Shown here: positions 2,684 to 16,088 of the stretch, piece after piece
Numbering within the stretch: the stretch's first letter is position 1
Layout of the letters: each line of letters opens with the position of its first letter
Source: Rhodospirillaceae bacterium
Lineage (GTDB): Bacteria; Pseudomonadota; Alphaproteobacteria; GCA-2731375
Assembly: GCA_018660265.1 (NCBI GenBank)
Contig: JABJKS010000059.1
Location: 62,001-126,000 of the forward strand
Reading direction: 5' to 3'
DNA: 64,000 nt
Notes under the pieces: generated by a model
The model's database searches: none
What the model was told of the DNA's origin: nothing
What the model saw: the letters and a program-made list of their open reading frames with translations, nothing else
Made by a program: the position numbers and the translations under genes

Positions 2684-4516
2684 ATGCGAGCAGGCTTACT
2701 GGAACCGAAACAGCAGGGTTGGGCAATGGCGCTAGACTATCTGGAACCAAAGATTGATGTGGAACGCCGCGACGATGGCAGCATTATACTGTCTTCACCC
2801 CATCCCTTGGCCCCGGCGGAGCGGCAGCTGGGATTGTATATGCGCCATTGGGCCGAGGCGGCACCGGAACGGACGTTTCTGGCGGTGCGGAAAGGCGACG
2901 GTTGGCAAAACCTGTCCTTTGCTGAGGCCCGTAAACAGGCCGATGCTATTTCCAAAGGGCTATTGGAACGGGATCTAAGCGCAGATCGTCCGGTGATGAT
3001 CCTGTCCGGCAACTCACTACAACATGCCATGCTGACCTACGGTGCCATGCAGGTGGGTATTCCCGTCGCACCCGTCTCGCCGGCCTATTCGCTGATGAGC
3101 CAGGATTTCGCCAAGCTGCGGCATATTTTTGCTCTGGTACAGCCGGGGTTGATCTTCGTGGAGGATGCAACACCCTTCGCCCAGGCCCTTGATAGCCTCG
3201 ACCTGGGCGGTGTCGAAGTTTTGGATGGCAACGGTTTGCAAAGCTTGAGTGCCGCGAACCCAGGGGCGGAGGTCGAAGCAGCCTTCGCTGCCGTTGGCCC
3301 TGACACGGTGGCAAAATACCTTTTCACTTCCGGCTCCACCGGCCTGCCAAAAGGGGTCATCAATACCCAAGGCATGTTGTGTTCGAACATGCAGCAACTG
3401 CGGCAGGTTTGGCCGTTTCTGTTGCGCCAACCGCCCATCCTGATCGACTGGTTGCCCTGGAACCATACCTTTGGCGGCAACATCGTCATCAACAACGCCA
3501 TGTGCAACGGCGGCACGTTATATGTGGACGGGGGTAAACCGGCACCGGGTTTGATCGATCTTACCATCGACAATCTACGTCGGGCCGCTGCCAACATTTA
3601 TTACAATGTGCCCGCAGGTTTCGCCGCGCTGTTGCCGTTTCTGGAGGACGATGCGGCCTTGCGGGATAATTTTTTCTCCCGCCTGGAGTTGATATTTTAT
3701 GCCGGCGCAGCCTTGCCCCAGGACCTGTGGCAACGCCTGGAGGCGGTCTCCATCCAGTCGCTGGGTCGTGCAGTGCCCATGGTTTCCGCCTGGGGTTCCA
3801 CGGAAACCGCACCCATGGCCACGGCTGTGCATTGGCCCATCGACAGGGCCGGGGTCATCGGCCTGCCGGTGCCGGGAACCGAGATTAAAATGGTGCCCAA
3901 TGGCGGTAAGATGGAGCTGCGGGTACGCGGACCCAACGTGACGTCGGGCTATCTTAAACAGGCGGAACTGACGGCAGCGGCCTTCGACGACGAAGGCTTT
4001 TATCGTATTGGCGATGCGGGGGATTTCGCTGATCCGGCGCATCCCGTTAAAGGCCTGATATTCGATGGCCGGGTGGCGGAGGACTTCAAACTGACCACGG
4101 GTACCTGGGTCAACAGCGGTGGCCTGCGTCTGGCCGCCATGACGGCTGCCGCCCCGGTCCTACAAGACGTGGTCGTCGCGGGCCATGATCGTGACTATGT
4201 GGCCTTGCTGGCCTGGCCGAACCTGGCCGGATGCCAAACAGTCTGCGGTGATGGAGAGCTGGATGCCGCGGGGGCGGCGGCCTCGGACAAAGTCCATCAG
4301 CATATTCGCCAGGCCCTGGAAGCCTACAATAAAGACTATCCAGGCTCTTCCACCCGGATCAACCGGATGATCCTGATGGCCACACCGCCCGCGACCGACG
4401 CCAATGAAATCACCGACAAGGGTTACATCAATCAACGGGCCGTGCTGAAGAACCGGGCGGTGGAGGTGGGGCGTCTGTATGCTGATGCCCCAGATGAGGG
4501 CGTCATTCAGCTTTAG
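2684..4516 (+). CDS. feruloyl-CoA synthase-like AMP-dependent ligase
   Basis: ATP-dependent activation of a carboxylic acid to its CoA thioester. The 610-residue length and the N-terminal HPLAPAERQLG and C-terminal regions resemble the feruloyl-CoA synthase branch of the ANL superfamily, which activates hydroxycinnamates. Motifs: phosphate loop TSGSTGLPKGV near residue 215, WGSTETAPM near 369, and the hinge region FDGRVAEDFKL. A second ATG at 2726 (MALDYLEPK) is also possible; the upstream one has GGAAG nine bases before it. A short inverted repeat TCCGG-N6-CCGGA (2658-2673) sits between it and the divergent nuclease-like gene. Its 3' end overlaps the convergent desaturase by 4 bases. The exact substrate is inferred, not shown. 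Confidence 0.78.
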   Translation: MRAGLLEPKQQGWAMALDYLEPKIDVERRDDGSIILSSPHPLAPAERQLGLYMRHWAEAAPERTFLAVRKGDGWQNLSFAEARKQADAISKGLLERDLSADRPVMILSGNSLQHAMLTYGAMQVGIPVAPVSPAYSLMSQDFAKLRHIFALVQPGLIFVEDATPFAQALDSLDLGGVEVLDGNGLQSLSAANPGAEVEAAFAAVGPDTVAKYLFTSGSTGLPKGVINTQGMLCSNMQQLRQVWPFLLRQPPILIDWLPWNHTFGGNIVINNAMCNGGTLYVDGGKPAPGLIDLTIDNLRRAAANIYYNVPAGFAALLPFLEDDAALRDNFFSRLELIFYAGAALPQDLWQRLEAVSIQSLGRAVPMVSAWGSTETAPMATAVHWPIDRAGVIGLPVPGTEIKMVPNGGKMELRVRGPNVTSGYLKQAELTAAAFDDEGFYRIGDAGDFADPAHPVKGLIFDGRVAEDFKLTTGTWVNSGGLRLAAMTAAAPVLQDVVVAGHDRDYVALLAWPNLAGCQTVCGDGELDAAGAAASDKVHQHIRQALEAYNKDYPGSSTRINRMILMATPPATDANEITDKGYINQRAVLKNRAVEVGRLYADAPDEGVIQL

Positions 4517-5556
4517 CTTATAGCCGCTATGGGATCGGCACTGACCAATCTGGCGGTGGCGAAAATATGGCGCACTTCCGCGTTGTTCAATAGACCGCGC
4601 TGTTGCATTTCCCGGTGGCAGACGGGCAGATTGTAATGGGGAATGGCGGGATATAGATGATGTTCGATGTGATAGTTCACCTGATAGGGAAACAGAAACC
4701 ACAGCAACCATCCCGGGCCTAGGTTGGTGCGCGCCGCCAGCAAAGGTGAGTGTTCATCCTGGACTGCGCCGTGTTCGCAAATAGCCCGAAAGCGCAGCAA
4801 GGCCTGCAGCACAGTGCATAAGGGCAATATCCACAGAAGAAAATAAGCAACGCCGTAACCGGTCGCAATCGCCAGAGCCAGGGCGCAAACCTGAAGCCCG
4901 ACAACGAACCAGCGATCCTGCCGCGCCGCTTTGCGCAAAACCGGCGCAGTGTCGTGCAAGGGCTCTGTCGTATTCGGTGCTTCGTCATTGATTGCCGGGG
5001 CACCCATGAAATAGGCGAAGGTTTTGGGTGCCGTCCGCCCGGTCAAATCGAACAGCAATTTCCGCAGCAGATATCGCCGCCCCCGTGGATAGCCGCCATG
5101 CAGGGGTATGTCAGGGTCCTGTCGTTCATAGAGATGATTGTGATGCAGGCGATGGACAACCCTGTAGGTGCGCATTGAAATGCCGACCGGTGCGGCCAGG
5201 GCGCGGCCAACAACATCGTTCAACGCCCTGTTCTTGAACAGGCGGTAATGGGCCGCGTCATGGGCCAGGACAAAACAGGCCTGCTGGCGGGAAGCAATGA
5301 TCACAATTGCCGGAACAATCACCCAAGGAGTCCACCAGTAAAGGGCAGCGGCAACACAGGCTGCGACCACCGCAACCAGTGAAATGACTGAAATCCAGGC
5401 CTTCGTATCATCTTGCTGCGACAGTTCTTTGACCAAGGCTGCGGGCAGGCCGGCCCGGCCGCCTTGGCCGCGCCTGTCGTTGCGAAACTCTTCGCCCTGT
5501 CTCTGCTCCTCTGCCATAGCCATTGTGTAAGGTTCCACGGATTTGATAGCCAGCAT
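4513..5556 (-). CDS. membrane fatty acid desaturase family protein
   Basis: Integral membrane di-iron enzyme that introduces a double bond or hydroxyl into an acyl chain. All three histidine boxes are present: HDAAH (99-103), HRLHHNH (about 135-141) and HIEHH (about 295-299). Hydrophobic segments lie near residues 55-90 and 205-235. The length of 347 residues is normal; starts at Met12 or Met14 (MAMAEEQ) are alternatives, as residues 1-11 look poorly conserved. It is divergent from the aminotransferase across 56 bases and convergent with the CoA ligase. The electron donor is not encoded nearby. Confidence 0.86.
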   Translation of the reverse strand: MLAIKSVEPYTMAMAEEQRQGEEFRNDRRGQGGRAGLPAALVKELSQQDDTKAWISVISLVAVVAACVAAALYWWTPWVIVPAIVIIASRQQACFVLAHDAAHYRLFKNRALNDVVGRALAAPVGISMRTYRVVHRLHHNHLYERQDPDIPLHGGYPRGRRYLLRKLLFDLTGRTAPKTFAYFMGAPAINDEAPNTTEPLHDTAPVLRKAARQDRWFVVGLQVCALALAIATGYGVAYFLLWILPLCTVLQALLRFRAICEHGAVQDEHSPLLAARTNLGPGWLLWFLFPYQVNYHIEHHLYPAIPHYNLPVCHREMQQRGLLNNAEVRHIFATARLVSADPIAAIS

Positions 5557-5612
5557 TTTTTCGTGCGCCGATGTCCAGTTGGTATAACATCAACATTTAA
5601 TCGCGCAGTCAG

Positions 5613-6998
5613 ATGAGTGGACCCATGCTAAGCAATTCTCCTATCGTGAACCAATATGTCGACCGTACGCCCGCCAGCCAGGCCCTGGCGGCCCAGGCCG
5701 GAAAGCATTTTCCTTCCGCCATAACCCATGACAGCCGCCACACCACGCCCTATGGCATTTATGTGGAAAAGGCCAAAGGCTCACGCAAATGGGATGCGGA
5801 CGGCAATAACTATGTCGACTATTTCGGCGGTCATGGGGCCTTGATGCTGGGCCACCGTAACGAGGAGGTTGAGGTCTGCATTCAGGAAGCCCTGGCGGCA
5901 GGCACGCATTTTGGTTCGTCCCATAAATACGAGGTTGCCTGGGCCGGCGCGGTGCAAAACCTGATGCCCTCAGCCGAACGAATTCGTTTTACCGCCTCGG
6001 GGACAGAGGCCACATTGCTGGCCATGCGCCTGGCAAGAGCCTTTACAGGTAAGAACCGCATCGCACGGTTTAGAACCCATTTTCATGGCTGGCACGATCA
6101 TATGGCCTTTGGCGTGGCCAATCATTTTGACGGTACGGCGACGCCCGGCGTTTTGCCGGAAGTCGCGGCACAAGTCACACTGTTGGACCCCAATGATATT
6201 GATGCGGTGGCCCAGGCGTTGGAGGACGACAAGGAAATTGCCGCCATTATTCTGGAGCCCACGGGCGGTGGCGGCGGCATGGTGCCCCTGGTGCCTGATT
6301 TTGTGGTGCAATTGCGCGAGTTGACGGAACGTCACGGGGTTTTGTTGATCCTGGACGAGGTGGTTACCGGCTTTCGGGTGCATCCGGGCGGGGCCCAGGG
6401 GTTGTTCGGCGTTACACCTGATTTAAGCACATTGGCCAAAATTCTGGCCGGCGGCCTGCCTGGTGGTGCCGTCGTAGGTCGGCAGGATATATTGGAGCGT
6501 TTGGATTTTAAGTCCGCGGCGGACAAGGCCTTCGAAAAGATCCATCATCCCGGTACTTTCAATGCAAATCCCCTGTCAGCCGCGGCAGGCACCAAGACAT
6601 TGGAGATCATTGCCAATACGGATGCCTGCGCCAAGGCGGCTGCCTTTGGGGCGGAAGTCCGGCAAAAACTGAACGAAAGTTTCGCCCGCGCCGGCATTGC
6701 CTGGGCTGCTTATGGCGAACAGGCGAACTTCTTTATTTTCATGAACAGCGCCGATCTGAAGATTGATCCATTGGAATTTGATCCACTTTCAATGCCCTAT
6801 GAGGATTTGAAAGGCAAACCGGCTGGCCTGTTGAATAAGTTGCGCCTGGCCTTGTTGATCGGTGGTGTCGATATCTCCGGTTCGGGCGGGGGCGTGATTT
6901 CGGCCACCCACGATGACGATGACCTGGCCCAGACCGTGGCGGCGTTCGAGGGTGCCTTGGAAATGTTGCGGGCGGAAGAAAGCTTACCCAAATTATAG
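5613..6998 (+). CDS. class III (HemL-like) PLP aminotransferase/aminomutase
   Basis: PLP enzyme of 461 residues in the glutamate-1-semialdehyde aminomutase-like branch of class III aminotransferases. Landmarks are GGHGALMLGHRN in the N-terminal part, FRTHFHGWHDH, the cofactor motif LILDEVVTGFR, and STLAKILAGGLPGGA, in which Lys276 is the expected Schiff-base lysine. It is not likely the biosynthetic HemL: it is longer and sits with an SDR 18 bases downstream, suggesting an operon that transaminates a substrate and then oxidises or reduces it. A second start at Met5 is possible. Confidence 0.82.
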   Translation: MSGPMLSNSPIVNQYVDRTPASQALAAQAGKHFPSAITHDSRHTTPYGIYVEKAKGSRKWDADGNNYVDYFGGHGALMLGHRNEEVEVCIQEALAAGTHFGSSHKYEVAWAGAVQNLMPSAERIRFTASGTEATLLAMRLARAFTGKNRIARFRTHFHGWHDHMAFGVANHFDGTATPGVLPEVAAQVTLLDPNDIDAVAQALEDDKEIAAIILEPTGGGGGMVPLVPDFVVQLRELTERHGVLLILDEVVTGFRVHPGGAQGLFGVTPDLSTLAKILAGGLPGGAVVGRQDILERLDFKSAADKAFEKIHHPGTFNANPLSAAAGTKTLEIIANTDACAKAAAFGAEVRQKLNESFARAGIAWAAYGEQANFFIFMNSADLKIDPLEFDPLSMPYEDLKGKPAGLLNKLRLALLIGGVDISGSGGGVISATHDDDDLAQTVAAFEGALEMLRAEESLPKL

Positions 6999-9634: not shown

Positions 9635-9985
9635 CTAAATCAGCTTCCGCAATACGTGGCTGCGATTGGTGGTGAAGGGGCGCACTTGACCGCCCCAACG
9701 ACCTTCCTCCACCGCTTCGGCCCAGGCGGCACTGTTGAGGACATCGGGGCTGTCGACTTCATAGACCGCGATGTAATGGGGCATGCCCTCACCTGTGACG
9801 GGAATTTCATCGCCGCCCATTGCCAAAACGGCGGGCTCTGTTTTCAGGCGGGAGACGGCGACCACGCCGGGTACTTTCAACAGGGCGGGGATATGCTCCT
9901 CATCATAGACTTCGTTGAAAAGCGCCTCCTTGTCAGGGGCAACGTCCATGGAAACGATGAAGGCATATTTGGCATTAAAGGGCAT
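9635..9985 (-). CDS. dimeric alpha-beta barrel (EthD-like) protein
   Basis: Small cytoplasmic protein of 116 residues with the pattern of ferredoxin-like dimeric alpha-beta barrels: a strand KYAFIVSMDV, the helix and loop FNEVYDEEHIPALLKVPGV, and a later strand HYIAVYEVDS. Related domains act as small monooxygenases or lyases or bind hydrophobic ligands; no catalytic residue can be named. A GGAG-type ribosome site precedes the ATG. It lies 29 bases downstream of the citrate synthase-like gene on the same strand, so the two are probably one operon. Confidence 0.7.
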   Translation of the reverse strand: MPFNAKYAFIVSMDVAPDKEALFNEVYDEEHIPALLKVPGVVAVSRLKTEPAVLAMGGDEIPVTGEGMPHYIAVYEVDSPDVLNSAAWAEAVEEGRWGGQVRPFTTNRSHVLRKLI

Positions 9986-10014: not shown

Positions 10015-10806
10015 TTAATCATAGCTGATTTGGCTGGCTGGTATATGGCGCCAGGTGGTGTCTTGTTCCTGTTCCTCCAGAAAATGCGCGCCCATGGAGA
10101 CCGAGCGTGGGGTCAACAGGAACAACCGGGTGCTTTGCCAGGTAAAGCCCATGTCCAGAATAACTACGGCGGAGACCCCGTCCAAATTCATCGGCACCAC
10201 TTTGCCGCCACGCTGGGCCGCCAGGGCGGTCTCTATTGCCATACCAAGGCGGCAATAATTGCCAAACGTACCCTCTTCCCGGGCCACGGACAAAACGCCG
10301 GGTGCCCGTGGATCGGCACCGTGCAGCGGAATGCCATAACCGGGCACCCGCTGACCCGTCTCGCCTGCCTCTCTGACCATTTCGGCTGCGATGTCGTTCA
10401 GGGTTTGGTCGTCGATTTCACTATTGGCCGGATCATAAGGCGTTAGGCGTTCCACCATTTGCTGGGCCAACTGTTCGCCCAGGCCACCCATACGGTCTCC
10501 AAAGGCCAGGACACCGCCACCTACCGCGGCCTGGATCGAGGTGCCGTAAGAGGCAAAACAGCGGCTGATCATGGACGGCGGTGCAATGCCGTGCTCCATG
10601 GAGGCGACCAGCAGGGCATCCAGAACCCGCGCCTGCGGCGGCGTAGGCAAGCGCCCTGCCAGCATCAGGAACATCATTTCGGCAAAGCTAACCTTGCCGA
10701 TCAATTGGCTGAGGGGCTGGCCCCGCACCATGATCTCCTCCTCCGTTTCGGTGCTGATGACCTGGGAAATGGATGTCTTCCAACTCGTCATATCTCGTGT
10801 CGCCAT
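10015..10806 (-). CDS. citrate synthase-fold (citryl-CoA lyase-like) protein lacking catalytic histidines
   Basis: About 263 residues from the ATG at 10806, chosen because GGAGA precedes it; an upstream in-frame Met at 10860 has no ribosome site. The family pattern is clear: TSISQV start, VRGQPLSQLIGKVSFAEM, MEHGIAPPS, then GVLAFGDRMGG, GYGIPLHGADPRAPG and MNLDGVSAVVILD. In citrate synthases and citryl-CoA lyases the last blocks normally read like G..HGGA and G[FY]GH.....DPRA. Here both active-site His positions appear to be Met and Ile. It may act on a different acyl-CoA or not be an enzyme. Partner: the EthD-like gene downstream. Confidence 0.75.
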   Translation of the reverse strand: MATRDMTSWKTSISQVISTETEEEIMVRGQPLSQLIGKVSFAEMMFLMLAGRLPTPPQARVLDALLVASMEHGIAPPSMISRCFASYGTSIQAAVGGGVLAFGDRMGGLGEQLAQQMVERLTPYDPANSEIDDQTLNDIAAEMVREAGETGQRVPGYGIPLHGADPRAPGVLSVAREEGTFGNYCRLGMAIETALAAQRGGKVVPMNLDGVSAVVILDMGFTWQSTRLFLLTPRSVSMGAHFLEEQEQDTTWRHIPASQISYD

Positions 10807-10973
10807 GGTGCCGTCTCCTGCTTTTGTACAAATGCGCTGCGCCCAAAGTGTCAGATTCATTCGGCATTACAAGTGGCAACATGGTTGTGTTCCCATTTGC
10901 GTTCCCAGTTGCGTTCTGGGTGCCAATTTGGGAGCATGGGGAAAAGCCATACGGAAAACGGAAGGATACCATC

Positions 10974-11819
10974 GTGCAAACATTGACGAAGGAACAACGC
11001 CGGGCCTGGGACATTGACGGTTACGTCCAACTCAAAGGCGTCTTCGATGCTGAGGAAGTCGCATTTTTCTGCGATGAAATTGACAATATGCGAGCCCAAC
11101 CGGGATGGGAGCCGACGGATTTGCCGCGCGGCCATTACGGTTGGGTGGAACACGGTAACCCGGATCCGGAAAGCTTCATGGATCGCCGCGACATCCTGCC
11201 GTATCACAAGGCGTTCAGAGATCTGATCGACCGGCCGGAGGTTTTCGATCTGGTGGTTGATATTATGGGCCCCTACCTCTCCTTTTCCATGGCGCAGTGT
11301 ATTGTCCGTGCCTCGGACCCGGAATTCCTTGGCTATACCCATACGGACGGCGGCGAAGGTCTGCGCCGGGTGCGGGTGACGGAATCCAGCCGGCCCCTGG
11401 CCATGAAGGCGCTGTATCTTTTGACGGACGTTGATGGTCCGGACAATGCCAATTTCACCGTCTTCCCCGGCAGCCATATGCGCCCTTTCCCGGAATTGGA
11501 CGAGCCGGTGGTCACGCCCACCACGCCCGGTGCCGTGCCCCTGACGGGCAAGGCAGGCGATTGCGTCATCTTCTCCCATTCCCTGTGGCATGGACCGGGG
11601 CGGAACATATCCGGCACGGCGCGCAAGACCCTGCTGTACAATTACTGTCAAATGTTCGTCCGCCCCTATGACTATGCTGTGGCCTCACACGTAGCTGAAC
11701 AATGTACGCCCCGGCAACGGCGTCTGTTGGGGGATTTGGGCTATGATTTCCGTCCGGGCTCTTACGTTTATGTACCCGACGATCAGGTTGAGTTGATTAC
11801 CGGCCAAGCCTCGCAATAG
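10974..11819 (+). CDS. phytanoyl-CoA dioxygenase (PhyH) family oxygenase
   Basis: Fe(II)/2-oxoglutarate-dependent hydroxylase of about 281 residues. The GTG at 10974 is preferred: GGAAGG lies eight bases upstream and LTKEQRRAWDIDGYVQLKGVF is the usual N-terminus; longer in-frame starts add unrelated sequence that runs antisense into the divergent gene. The iron triad reads His123-x-Asp125 (THTDGG) and His206 (LWHGPGRN), with the 2-oxoglutarate-binding basic residue just after. First gene of a plus-strand run to 16.1 kb. The substrate is unknown; PhyH relatives act on acyl-CoAs, small amides and phosphonates. Confidence 0.83.
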   Translation: MQTLTKEQRRAWDIDGYVQLKGVFDAEEVAFFCDEIDNMRAQPGWEPTDLPRGHYGWVEHGNPDPESFMDRRDILPYHKAFRDLIDRPEVFDLVVDIMGPYLSFSMAQCIVRASDPEFLGYTHTDGGEGLRRVRVTESSRPLAMKALYLLTDVDGPDNANFTVFPGSHMRPFPELDEPVVTPTTPGAVPLTGKAGDCVIFSHSLWHGPGRNISGTARKTLLYNYCQMFVRPYDYAVASHVAEQCTPRQRRLLGDLGYDFRPGSYVYVPDDQVELITGQASQ

Positions 11820-11832
11820 CGAGCTATCTCCC

Positions 11833-13152
11833 ATGGCACCGAATATGCACCTGGCCTTTGTGCTTGGTCACGGGCCCTCTCAGCATTCCATTGGTGCCTG
11901 GGCCATGCCCAGGGCTTATCGCGGTTTTAACTACGCCCAACCGGCATTTTGGGAACATCTTGCGCGCACCCTGGATCGGGGCTGTATCGATATGCTGTTC
12001 TTTGCCGATATGTATGGGGTCTATGATGTGTTCGAGGGCAAGGCGGATGCCGCCGTCAAATACGCCATTCAATTTCCCTTGCATGACCCTGCCCCCCTGG
12101 TGCCCCTGATTACCCGCTCCAGCACCGGTCTGGGCGTCGGCATCTCGGTCTCCACCACCTATGTGCCGCCCTATCACACGGCCCGGTCCATGGCGACGTT
12201 GGATCATCTAAGCGAGGGCCGCGTGGCCTGGAACGTGGTCGCCAGCTATGGCCGTAACGCCGCCGCCCAATTCAATATGACGGAGGAGCTGTCGAAGCAG
12301 GAACGCTACGCCCGGGCGGAAGAATATATGCAGGTCTGCTACAAGCTATGGGACAGTTGGGAGCCGGACGCCCTGGTTATGGATCGTGATGGCATGACCT
12401 TCGCCGATCCTGCGAAGGTCCATAAGATCCACCATCAGGGCGACTATTTCCAGGTCGAAGGTCCGCTGTGCGTGGCACCAGGACCCCAGGGCTGGCCGGT
12501 GATTATTCAGGCGGGCGGCTCCGGCCCCGGGATGGCCTTTGCCGGCCGCCATGCCGAAGTGCATTTCGCAACGTCCTCCAGCCTGGCGGGTATGGCAGAA
12601 CATCGGGCGCGGATAGATGCCAGTGCCGGGGAAGCCGGGCGTGCGCCTAAAGATATTCGTACCATATGGGCCAGCTCCATCTTCGTCGGCGAGACGGAGG
12701 CGGAGGCGAAAGCCAAGGATGAGGCTCTGCGCGCCATGGTGCCGCCCATGGGCGGCCTGGCCCTGATGTCCGGCCATTTCGGCGTGGATTTTTCAACCCT
12801 GCCGTCGGACATTCCTATCGAGGATACGGGGATCGAAGAAACACCGGGAATGCAGGGCGTCGCCAACATGCTGCTGCGGGACTATCACGGCCAAACCCTG
12901 GCCGAGGTGGCGCGTATGTACGGCAACGGTATGGGCGGTTTCCGCGCCATTGGCACGGCAGCGCAAGTCGCCGATAAAATGGAAGAGGCCTATGATGCAT
13001 CGGGCGGCCATGGTTTCATGTTCCGTTGCGCCGATTTGCCGGGCAGTGTGGCCGACGTGGTGGATTTGTTGGTGCCGGAACTGCAACGACGGGGCCGCTT
13101 CCGCAAGGCCTATGAAGGTGAAACCCTGCGTGATCGGTTATTGAGTGATTGA
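11833..13152 (+). CDS. flavin-dependent monooxygenase, NtaA/SnaA/DszA group (luciferase-like)
   Basis: TIM-barrel FMNH2-dependent monooxygenase of 439 residues, the size of the nitrilotriacetate/dibenzothiophene-sulfone monooxygenase group. Typical blocks: SIGAWAMP near the N-terminus, STTYVPPYHTARSMATLDHLSEGRVAWNVV, the YMQVCYKLWDSWE helix, HQGDYFQVEGPL and QAGGSGPGMAFAGRHAE. It needs a separate flavin reductase, none of which is visible nearby. It begins 13 bases after the PhyH gene, so the two oxygenases are probably co-expressed. A start at 11845 (MHLAFVLG) is equally possible. Confidence 0.86.
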   Translation: MAPNMHLAFVLGHGPSQHSIGAWAMPRAYRGFNYAQPAFWEHLARTLDRGCIDMLFFADMYGVYDVFEGKADAAVKYAIQFPLHDPAPLVPLITRSSTGLGVGISVSTTYVPPYHTARSMATLDHLSEGRVAWNVVASYGRNAAAQFNMTEELSKQERYARAEEYMQVCYKLWDSWEPDALVMDRDGMTFADPAKVHKIHHQGDYFQVEGPLCVAPGPQGWPVIIQAGGSGPGMAFAGRHAEVHFATSSSLAGMAEHRARIDASAGEAGRAPKDIRTIWASSIFVGETEAEAKAKDEALRAMVPPMGGLALMSGHFGVDFSTLPSDIPIEDTGIEETPGMQGVANMLLRDYHGQTLAEVARMYGNGMGGFRAIGTAAQVADKMEEAYDASGGHGFMFRCADLPGSVADVVDLLVPELQRRGRFRKAYEGETLRDRLLSD

Positions 13153-13177
13153 TGAAGTTTGGTGAGGATAAAACCCT

Positions 13178-14011
13178 ATGAGCAGTAATTACCAAGCCAA
13201 GATTGACGGGTTGGAAAACGTTGCCCGACATATCCGGCGCAATGTCTGGCGGGCCCTGCATGGTGCGGGCTCCGGCCATATGGGTGGTTCCTCATCCGCA
13301 GCCGATATCCTGGCGGCGTTGTATTTTCATCATTTGAACCTGCGCCCGGATGATCCCGACTGGTCAGACCGGGACCGCTTTGTTCTGTCCAAAGGGCACG
13401 CCAACGCGGCCCTGGGCGCAACACTGGCGCAAGCTGGATATATCGATGATAGCGTGTTGGATCAGTTCTATGCCTATCAGTCGTCGTTCGGCATGCACCC
13501 GGATATCAAAATGGCCGGGGTGGAGATGAGTACGGGCGGTCTGGGGCATGGCCTGTCGGTGGGCATCGGCATGGCCTTGGGCGCGCGTATGCAGGCTAAG
13601 GATTTCCGTACTTGTGTGATGATCGGCGATGGGGAGTTGCAGGAAGGCTCCAACTGGGAAGGTGCCATGGCGGCAGCCCATCTGGGCCTGTCAAACCTGA
13701 CAGTCATTCTGGATTACAACAAGATCCAACAGTCGGGCCACGTGGGCCAGATGTTGGATTTGGAACCGGTGCTTGATAAATGGGCCGCATTCGGTTGGGC
13801 CGTGCGCGAGATAGATGGCCACAATATGAGCGCCGTGGTGGAAGCCCTGGACGCCCTGCCATTTGCCGCAGCCGCACCATCCCTGATCATCGCCCACACC
13901 ATCAAGGGCAAGGGTGTCAGCTTCGCCGAGGATAGTTTCCTGTGGCACAACAATGCCGTGACGGATGAGGTCTACGAGCAGGCCCTAAGTGAGTTGGGAG
14001 AGCCGTCGTGA
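13178..14011 (+). CDS. transketolase, N-terminal (TPP) subunit
   Basis: 277-residue protein matching only the thiamine diphosphate-binding half of transketolase. Landmarks are GAGSGHMGGSSSAADI, the SKGHANAALGATLA block and the TPP/metal motif from GDGELQEGSNWEG to ILDYNK. It overlaps the C-terminal subunit gene by four bases (GTGA), typical of two-subunit enzymes translated together. Such split enzymes often serve specialised sugar or ketose chemistry rather than the central pentose phosphate pathway; that role is inferred from the catabolic neighbours. Confidence 0.9.
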   Translation: MSSNYQAKIDGLENVARHIRRNVWRALHGAGSGHMGGSSSAADILAALYFHHLNLRPDDPDWSDRDRFVLSKGHANAALGATLAQAGYIDDSVLDQFYAYQSSFGMHPDIKMAGVEMSTGGLGHGLSVGIGMALGARMQAKDFRTCVMIGDGELQEGSNWEGAMAAAHLGLSNLTVILDYNKIQQSGHVGQMLDLEPVLDKWAAFGWAVREIDGHNMSAVVEALDALPFAAAAPSLIIAHTIKGKGVSFAEDSFLWHNNAVTDEVYEQALSELGEPS

Positions 14012-15000
14012 CCTCCACAACAGACAAAGCGGGACAGCCCAAATCGGAAACGCCGGAGTGGGAAATTAAGGCGGCAAAGCAATCGCGTCTGGCCTTTGGC
14101 CTGGCCGTTGCCGAATTGGCCCGTCGGGACGAAAAGGTCGCGGCGATTTCCGCCGACACCATTGATCTGTTCGGCCTGCGCCCGTTTCTGGAAGCCAGCC
14201 CCGAACGCCTGATTGAAGCAGGCATTGCGGAACAGAACGCCATGGGCATTGCCGCCGGGATGGCGACCACGGGTATGCGCCCGATCATTTGCGGCTATGC
14301 TCCGTTCATCACCACCCGCTCGTTGGAGCAGCTGCGCAATGATGTGGCCTATGCCAATCAACGCGTGGTCATCGGGGCGGCCTGCGGCGGTATTGTCCTG
14401 GCAATGGCAGGCGGCACCCACCATGCGGTGGAAGATCTGGCCATTATGCGCAACATGCCCAATATGACAGTGATCGTGCCGGCGGATGCGAGGCAAACCT
14501 GGCATGCGGCCATGGCCACGGAACAACTGGACGGCCCCTGTTATATTCGCCTGGGCGGCAAGTTTGATGAACCTGATGTCACCGAACTGGATGCTGATTT
14601 TCGCATTGGCCGGGCTGATCAACTACGCAACGGTGATGACATCACGGTGATCGCCTGTGGTGCCCTGGTCGCACCGGCGGTGGCCACATCCCAGGCTTTG
14701 GCCCATGATGGTATCGGGGTCCGGGTTTTGAATATGCACACCATAAAGCCGCTGGATCGGGATGCGGTGCTGGCCGCGGCGGTTGAGACCGGGGCCATCG
14801 TCACGGCAGAGGAACATCGGGTAACGGGCGGCCTGGGCGGTGCGGTGGCGGAATTACTGGCCACGGAACAACCCACGCCCATGCGCATGATCGGCATGCC
14901 GGATGAATTCGCCATCGTCGGGCCCACCGCACAGGTGCGGGAACATTACGCCATGGGCGAGGGCGCCATCACGGATGCCTGCCGCGATCTGATGAGATAA
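14008..15000 (+). CDS. transketolase, C-terminal subunit
   Basis: 330-residue protein with the pyrimidine-binding and C-terminal domains of transketolase. SRLAFGLAVAEL, IEAGIAEQNAMGIAAGMA (with the Glu that activates TPP), HHAVEDLAIMRNMPNM and the C-terminal TAEEHRVTGGLGGAVAELL block are visible. The GTG start at 14008 sits in the overlap with the upstream subunit. Residues 1-20 are a variable polar extension. It should form a heteromer with the product of 13178-14011. Confidence 0.9.
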   Translation: MTSTTDKAGQPKSETPEWEIKAAKQSRLAFGLAVAELARRDEKVAAISADTIDLFGLRPFLEASPERLIEAGIAEQNAMGIAAGMATTGMRPIICGYAPFITTRSLEQLRNDVAYANQRVVIGAACGGIVLAMAGGTHHAVEDLAIMRNMPNMTVIVPADARQTWHAAMATEQLDGPCYIRLGGKFDEPDVTELDADFRIGRADQLRNGDDITVIACGALVAPAVATSQALAHDGIGVRVLNMHTIKPLDRDAVLAAAVETGAIVTAEEHRVTGGLGGAVAELLATEQPTPMRMIGMPDEFAIVGPTAQVREHYAMGEGAITDACRDLMR

Positions 15001-15068
15001 ATGCCGGGGACGGAGTATGATCAACATCAGAGTATCCCTGAAACGTTTTGAACGTTAGGAAAACGCAA

Positions 15069-16088
15069 ATGCTTGAAACCACGGTGGCGGGAAGCTTGCC
15101 GAAACCATCCTGGCTGGCTGAACCTAAAATACTCTGGCCGGCCTGGCGGCTCGACGGCGATACATTATTCGAAGGCCAACAGGATGCAGCCCTTGCTTGG
15201 ATCAAACATCAAGAGGATGCGGGGATAGATATCGTCAGCGATGGGGAGCAATTTCGAAAGCATTTCGTACACGGATTTCTTGAAACCATAGAAGGCATTG
15301 ACTGGCAGCTGATGACCACCATGGGCATTCGCAATGACCGCTATGATGCACAAGTGCCAACAGTAACTTCGGCTGTGCGCCGCCCCGGCTCTGTCCATGG
15401 TGCGGATGCCAGTTTCTGCCGCGATAATACCAAACGAAAATTGAAGTTCACATTACCCGGCCCGATGACGATTTGCGACACGATCGCCAACGCCCATTAT
15501 GACAGCCGACCGCATATGGCCATGGCCTTTGCTGATTTACTAAATGCCGAAGCCAGAGAGTTGGAGGCCCTTGGCGTCGACGTAATCCAATTCGACGAAC
15601 CGGCCTTCAACGCCTTCATGGGCGATGTTGTGGAATGGGGTGTCGACGCCTTGCATCGCGCCATTGATGGTCTGAAGTGCAAGACCGCCGTGCATATCTG
15701 TTATGGCTATGGCATTCAACAAAACATCGCTTGGAAAGCAACCTTGGGCGAGGAATGGCGTCAATACGAAGCGTTTTTCCCAGCCCTGAATGACAGCCGC
15801 ATCGACCAGGTTTCATTGGAATGCGCTAATTCAAAGGTACCCCTGTCCGTCCTGGGTCTTTTGAAAGATAAGGAAATTTTAGTCGGTGCCATCGACGTGG
15901 CCACCGAGGTTATTGAAAGCCCGGAACAAGTGGCCGAAACCTTGCGCGGGGCAATGGAGTTCGTAGACCCGGAGCGGATTATAGCCTGCACGAATTGCGG
16001 CATGGCACCGCTGCCCCGCACAGTGGCCGAGGCAAAAATCACCGCCCTGGGCCAGGGTGCCGCCTTGTTGCGCCAAGAGCTGGGTTAG
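15069..16088 (+). CDS. MetE core-domain methyltransferase-like protein
   Basis: A 339-residue protein that matches only the C-terminal catalytic barrel of cobalamin-independent methionine synthase (full MetE is about 750 residues). Zinc ligands are recognisable: His209 and Cys211 (HICYGYG), Glu251 (SLECAN) and Cys310 (CTNCGMAPL). ATG 15069 is chosen because TAGGAAA stands eight bases ahead; the frame is open slightly further upstream. Core-only MetE proteins transfer methyl groups from donors other than polyglutamyl folate, or remain uncharacterised. Its position behind oxygenases and a split transketolase suggests a catabolic or salvage job. Confidence 0.82.
   Translation: MLETTVAGSLPKPSWLAEPKILWPAWRLDGDTLFEGQQDAALAWIKHQEDAGIDIVSDGEQFRKHFVHGFLETIEGIDWQLMTTMGIRNDRYDAQVPTVTSAVRRPGSVHGADASFCRDNTKRKLKFTLPGPMTICDTIANAHYDSRPHMAMAFADLLNAEARELEALGVDVIQFDEPAFNAFMGDVVEWGVDALHRAIDGLKCKTAVHICYGYGIQQNIAWKATLGEEWRQYEAFFPALNDSRIDQVSLECANSKVPLSVLGLLKDKEILVGAIDVATEVIESPEQVAETLRGAMEFVDPERIIACTNCGMAPLPRTVAEAKITALGQGAALLRQELG

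Follow-up and report, generated by a model that had tools for sequence, protein, structure and literature searches.

The window, i.e. the whole stretch of 64,000 nucleotides that was analysed, contains a gene for a protein related to citrate synthases and citryl-CoA lyases. It is flanked by a gene for a small protein of 116 aa and by a divergent gene for a PhyH-family dioxygenase (Table 1). The reading frame runs from an ATG at 10806 to a stop codon ending at 10015 and encodes 263 aa. A longer frame with an ATG at 10860 (281 aa) is also listed. Most orthologs share a start of the form M-A/P-T-x-D-M, hence 10806 is preferred over 10860. The coding-strand letters ahead of this ATG are purine-rich (GCAGGAGACGGCACC). 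Both the ribosome site and the intactness of the frame, as claimed by the first-pass annotation, are thus confirmed, as the frame is free of internal stops, no frameshift is needed and GCAGGAGACGGCACC precedes the start.

Table 1. Genes and active-site codons at the locus, in window coordinates. Orthologs are the 13 members of the clade, others the remaining 53 aligned relatives.
Feature	Position	Strand	Remarks
Citrate synthase/citryl-CoA lyase-fold gene	10015..10806	(-)	open frame, Pfam PF00285 8.7e-25
His72 codon (EHG/DHG motif), kept	10591..10593	(-)	13/13 orthologs, 50/53 others
Met106 codon, HGG histidine position	10489..10491	(-)	ATG in 13/13 orthologs
Ile159 codon, GxGH histidine position	10330..10332	(-)	Ile in 13/13 orthologs, ATT/ATC/ATA
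Arg167 codon (DPR motif), kept	10306..10308	(-)	13/13 orthologs, 53/53 others
Asp209 codon, catalytic aspartate position (NVD/NIDG motif), kept	10180..10182	(-)	13/13 orthologs
Arg234 codon (PRSVSM motif), kept	10105..10107	(-)	13/13 orthologs, 51/53 others
116-aa small protein gene ('EthD-like' of the first-pass annotation)	9635..9985	(-)	29 bases downstream, same strand
PhyH-family dioxygenase gene, divergent neighbour, GTG start	10974..11819	(+)	PF05721 7e-14

Two further gene groups were recorded in the window. Positions 10974-16088 hold a row encoding the PhyH dioxygenase, an NtaA/DmoA-type monooxygenase, a split transketolase and a MetE-like methyltransferase, of which the part from PhyH to transketolase is kept in relatives. 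At 4513-6998 lie genes for a desaturase-like protein with GntB as best NCBIfam model (score 107.4, cut-off 380) and for an aminotransferase that also matches GntE well below the cut-off (239.2, cut-off 525). No claim of a GntB/GntE pathway is made.

The match to the Pfam family Citrate_synt reaches 87.9 bits and exceeds the cut-off of 27; its best stretch spans positions 162-355 of the 357 in the profile. With 263 aa as compared to about 370-430 aa, the protein is not a full-length citrate synthase including the N-terminal part. The six top NCBIfam models are all variants of PRK06224 'citryl-CoA lyase' (NF004864-NF004869, 91.9-200.3 bits), while citrate synthase models follow far behind. In spite of being the best-scoring models they miss their curated cut-offs of 193-409 bits throughout (200.3 versus 323, 188 versus 245, 184.6 versus 193, 184.4 versus 212, 161.2 versus 261 and 91.9 versus 409), and the relatives read outside the clade keep GxGH. 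The best solved relative is the citryl-CoA lyase of Hydrogenobacter thermophilus (6hxp), aligned over the whole length with a sequence E-value of 1.3e-35. It is the best structural match as well (Foldseek 9.3e-14; Z 21.8, rmsd 3.2 over 227 residues). The citrate synthase fold proposed beforehand is hence borne out by the Pfam match and by the Z score to 6hxp. Both proteins have in common the length, the fold, the histidine of EHG/DHG, the arginine of DPR, the aspartate of NxDG and an arginine near the C-terminus. They differ in that 6hxp has histidine at both motif positions, where the window clade has methionine and isoleucine. The closest relatives are short proteins that resemble citryl-CoA lyases rather than citrate synthases. 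A search against PHROGs gave no match. The AlphaFold model of the 263-aa protein has a mean pLDDT of 80 with weak stretches at residues 1-4, 77-87, 98-103 and 253-263. Residues 77-87 and 98-103, near Met106 in sequence, are below 50 and the modelled pocket is therefore unreliable.

Residues were counted in 66 aligned relatives, comprising 13 orthologs of the clade (the window's included) and 53 others. The motif letters of the protein are those given in the first-pass annotation, AFGDRMGGLGEQ and VPGYGIPLHGADPRAP. Pairwise alignments to 6hxp and to T. thermophilus citrate synthase (1iom) place the HGG histidine at Met106, the GxGH histidine at Ile159 and the catalytic aspartate at Asp209. The absence of both histidines therefore stands: the replacements are in register in all 13 orthologs, there is no shift against either reference, and the window's copy needs no frameshift. 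Another histidine, His162 of 'IPLH', was considered as displaced catalytic residue and rejected, since 52 of the 53 other relatives have it beside their own GxGH.

The two positions behave differently among the 53 others. At position 106 these have His (38), Ile (8), Phe (3), Thr (2) or Val (2), compared to Met throughout the clade. At position 159 all 53 have His, as do 6hxp and two ATP-citrate lyases; by GltA numbering this residue is H306 of E. coli GltA. Asp209 is matched by Asp in 38 of the 53, and the 15 that lost it are the same that lack the HGG histidine, whereas the window clade kept it. The first-pass annotation makes no mention of this aspartate. This results in three active-site patterns, namely H/H/D (38), x/H/not-D (15) and M/I/D (13). 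Residues invariant and specific to the clade are Cys83, Tyr87, Thr232 and Ser237. The HGG position of Met106 corresponds to H274 of pig citrate synthase, where H238, R329 and R401 are the further matching His and Arg positions. His72, Arg167 and Arg234 are counterparts of substrate-binding residues in citrate synthase.

In ATP-citrate lyase, the citrate synthase homology module is joined to CoA-ligase and citrate-binding parts, either by fusion or as a partner. In the enzymes of Chlorobium and Methanothrix its HGG position is Phe, with GIGH and NVDG kept. The module thus resembles the window protein in that the HGG histidine is missing from a G-x-R-[FM]-GG motif and the aspartate is retained; it differs in keeping GIGH and is only about 20% identical. 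The first substitution consequently has a precedent in working enzymes. Judged by the aligned residues, loss of the HGG histidine is not new, as it is Phe in ATP-citrate lyases and absent from 15 of 53 relatives. The rare change is the one from the GxGH histidine to isoleucine, shared by 0 of the 53 and without precedent in the relatives compared. The loss of both histidines as one unusual event is hence not sustained. In the available portions of the literature searched, PMC4524684 and PMC5830745 included, no description of a natural variant of this sort was recognised.

The order was covered by 15 genomes, all of one family. Thirteen have an intact copy, one has a frame-broken copy (G392) and one has none (G067). 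The 13 orthologs are 67-86% identical to the window protein and form one clade with support of 100/99 in a tree of the 66 rows, in which bootstrap is not fully settled. The nearest sister is L008, a placement that is uncertain because of its long branch. Pairwise dN/dS ranges from 0.059 to 0.365 (78 pairs of the 13 orthologs), rough values as many dS exceed 1. Moreover 63 of 80 positions in the motif shell, which was chosen by eye, are invariant compared to 55 of 175 other positions (Fisher 1.4e-12). The gene is under purifying selection with the strongest conservation around the active site, and the M106/I159 variant is neither error nor chance.

The back-translated pattern G[YF]G[IM]P.H..DPR, searched in one spacing only, occurs in 4 genomes out of 385 from the class, and these four belong to the genus of the window. 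In the protein search of the class 30 matches were given loci; letter-by-letter reading extended to the smaller part of the 33 lower-scoring matches. The profile search of the phylum yielded matches at E<=1e-30 in 33 of 398 genomes including that of the window. Apart from the gene of the window itself, GxGH is present in every relative that was read from this search. The genome of the window also encodes a full citrate synthase (457 bits), in which the motifs HGGA, GFGH and NVD are present, as well as another short relative.

A mirror-image group was observed among short citryl-CoA-lyase-like proteins, in which the HGG histidine and the catalytic aspartate are lost and GxGH is kept. Its 13 rows (L013, L017, L020, L028, L030, L050, L076, L083, L084, L086 and L088-L090) together with L002 and L049 make up the 15 of 53 without HGG histidine and aspartate. 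L002 stems from the window's own genome (G000:C62:29003-29710; L111 6992-7711). Its three active-site residues are Thr, His and Ala, the counterpart of His72 is Gln, and a gene resembling acyl-CoA ligases lies immediately upstream. L008 has all three residues and lies in an apparent operon (L037, 3455-10167) with genes for an ADP-forming acyl-CoA synthetase, two acyl-CoA dehydrogenases and an AtuA-family protein, hinting at a role as terpene-like acyl-CoA lyase.

From its sequence features, the citrate-synthase-like protein probably has a job other than making or splitting citrate. We tentatively favour a protein specific to the order that binds an acyl-CoA and has an altered, Asp-based chemistry. 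The M106/I159 pair would have arisen once in a short citryl-CoA-lyase-like branch and then been passed down one bacterial order. A carboxylated acyl-CoA or similar ligand may be bound between the domains by His72, Arg167 and Arg234, and Asp209 may still act in acid/base catalysis at the carbon adjacent to the thioester. Lacking the GxGH histidine, the protein would not perform the usual ketone polarisation or deprotonation of a tertiary alcohol, and citrate or citryl-CoA would thus not be made or split by the standard route. The likeliest activity would be a related Asp-driven reaction at an acyl-CoA (proton transfer, hydrolysis or transfer), and the substrate may carry a non-polar group where the carbonyl of oxaloacetate would sit. 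As the aspartate and the binding residues are kept, a ligand pocket in use is favoured. High conservation of the pocket would also be expected of a non-catalytic ligand sensor. An Asp-centred acyl-CoA reaction new to the superfamily, possibly via Cys83, Tyr87, Thr232 or Ser237, or else a natural counterpart of the histidine mutants that senses CoA or a carboxylate, is conceivable but rather doubtful.

The protein may instead be a non-catalytic descendant. Its ligand would be CoA, an acyl-CoA or a carboxylate, and it would serve in sensing or as a structural or allosteric partner. Both replacements, Met106 and Ile159, are hydrophobic and fixed, which is in line with such a role. PMC7083601 reports on Caulobacter CitA with the GxGH histidine exchanged (H303A/H303W). 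These mutants lost citrate synthase activity and no longer correct a gltA mutant, yet the cell-cycle role is kept (PMC7083601). They resemble the window protein by a non-polar residue at this position, but were made in the laboratory from a full-length citrate synthase, while the window variant is natural and fixed across an order. Likewise, a function in loading CoA rather than in catalysis has been argued for the citrate synthase homology module in ATP-citrate lyase (PMC10115795). Opposed to this, Asp209 is present in 13 of 13 orthologs whereas the 15 relatives without HGG histidine have lost the aspartate, and no lasting protein partner is seen in the neighbourhoods. Hence we consider a purely non-catalytic role possible but somewhat unlikely, and give preference, still tentative, to altered Asp-based acyl-CoA chemistry.

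A citryl-CoA-type lyase acting on a citrate-like acyl-CoA, with His72, arginine side chains or main-chain amides standing in for the lost histidine, would agree with the closest solved structure and the closest NCBIfam models, all of which are citryl-CoA lyases, and with the ATP-citrate lyases that likewise do without the HGG histidine. However, none of the 53 other relatives and none of the known lyases lacks the GxGH histidine, and the six PRK06224 models all remain under their cut-offs. Moreover, the Citrate_bind domain (PF16114), a mark of citryl-CoA synthetase and ATP-citrate lyase, was found at E<=0.001 in none of the 13 clade genomes, drafts that may miss genes; the control genome G395 gave 2.7e-16. 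There, L063, a lyase-like gene in which all three residues are present, lies beside genes of the citryl-CoA synthetase/ATP-citrate lyase type. The missing domain and the missing GxGH histidine thus speak against a citryl-CoA lyase. The same histidine is essential in citrate synthase (PMC7083601). Taken together, we regard a lyase of this type as improbable.

The surroundings of the gene were compared between genomes. In subclade A (8 genomes; the window plus L034-L036 and L058-L061) the 116-aa gene directly follows the citrate-synthase-like gene at its 3' side and PhyH is divergent, in 8 of 8 cases. This is not the case in subclade B, where a methyltransferase, a serine hydrolase and a peptide ABC transporter are the neighbours. 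In G386 and G389 the 116-aa gene adjoins PhyH at a distance of 207 and 96 bases, respectively, and the citrate-synthase-like gene is found on other contigs, which means that the 116-aa/PhyH pair exists without it. An arrangement with the citrate-synthase-like gene between the two was seen only in subclade A. The 116-aa gene as a lasting partner was thus rejected outside subclade A. The 116-aa protein has no Pfam or NCBIfam match under 1e-3, the best Pfam hit being DUF5878 (E 0.097), therefore the label 'EthD-like' is unsupported. A coupled EthD-like partner, as suggested by the first-pass annotation, can accordingly not be upheld. No common pathway was seen in the neighbourhoods of subclade B, L008 and L063. 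As the neighbours differ between the subclades, no pathway indicates the substrate. Membership in a small-gene/PhyH/transketolase locus, with a task in the same pathway as those genes, would fit the distance of 29 bases on the same strand and the constant adjacency in subclade A, but the layout in G386 and G389 makes it very unlikely. A decaying gene or a sequencing artefact, for which the frame-broken copy of G392 (L062 2828-3541, GFGIPLH motif still visible; draft error or decay) and the missing copy of G067 might be quoted, has next to no probability, given the dN/dS of < 0.4 and the shared motif letters of 13 orthologs with intact frames, the stop-free frame of the window copy, for which frameshift or decay was thus rejected, and the state of G392 as an 81% complete draft in about 700 contigs.

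The earlier proposal, in which the protein may have another kind of CoA chemistry or else a role without catalysis, is compatible with our data as a hypothesis, and the step from sequence to reaction is one that we infer. The fixed and selected loss of the GxGH histidine with the aspartate kept represents a natural test of the purpose of each residue. The variant bears on the question how a central metabolic fold turns to new chemistry or signalling. For the citrate-synthase-like protein itself, a label 'citryl-CoA lyase' given by similarity alone would be unsafe.
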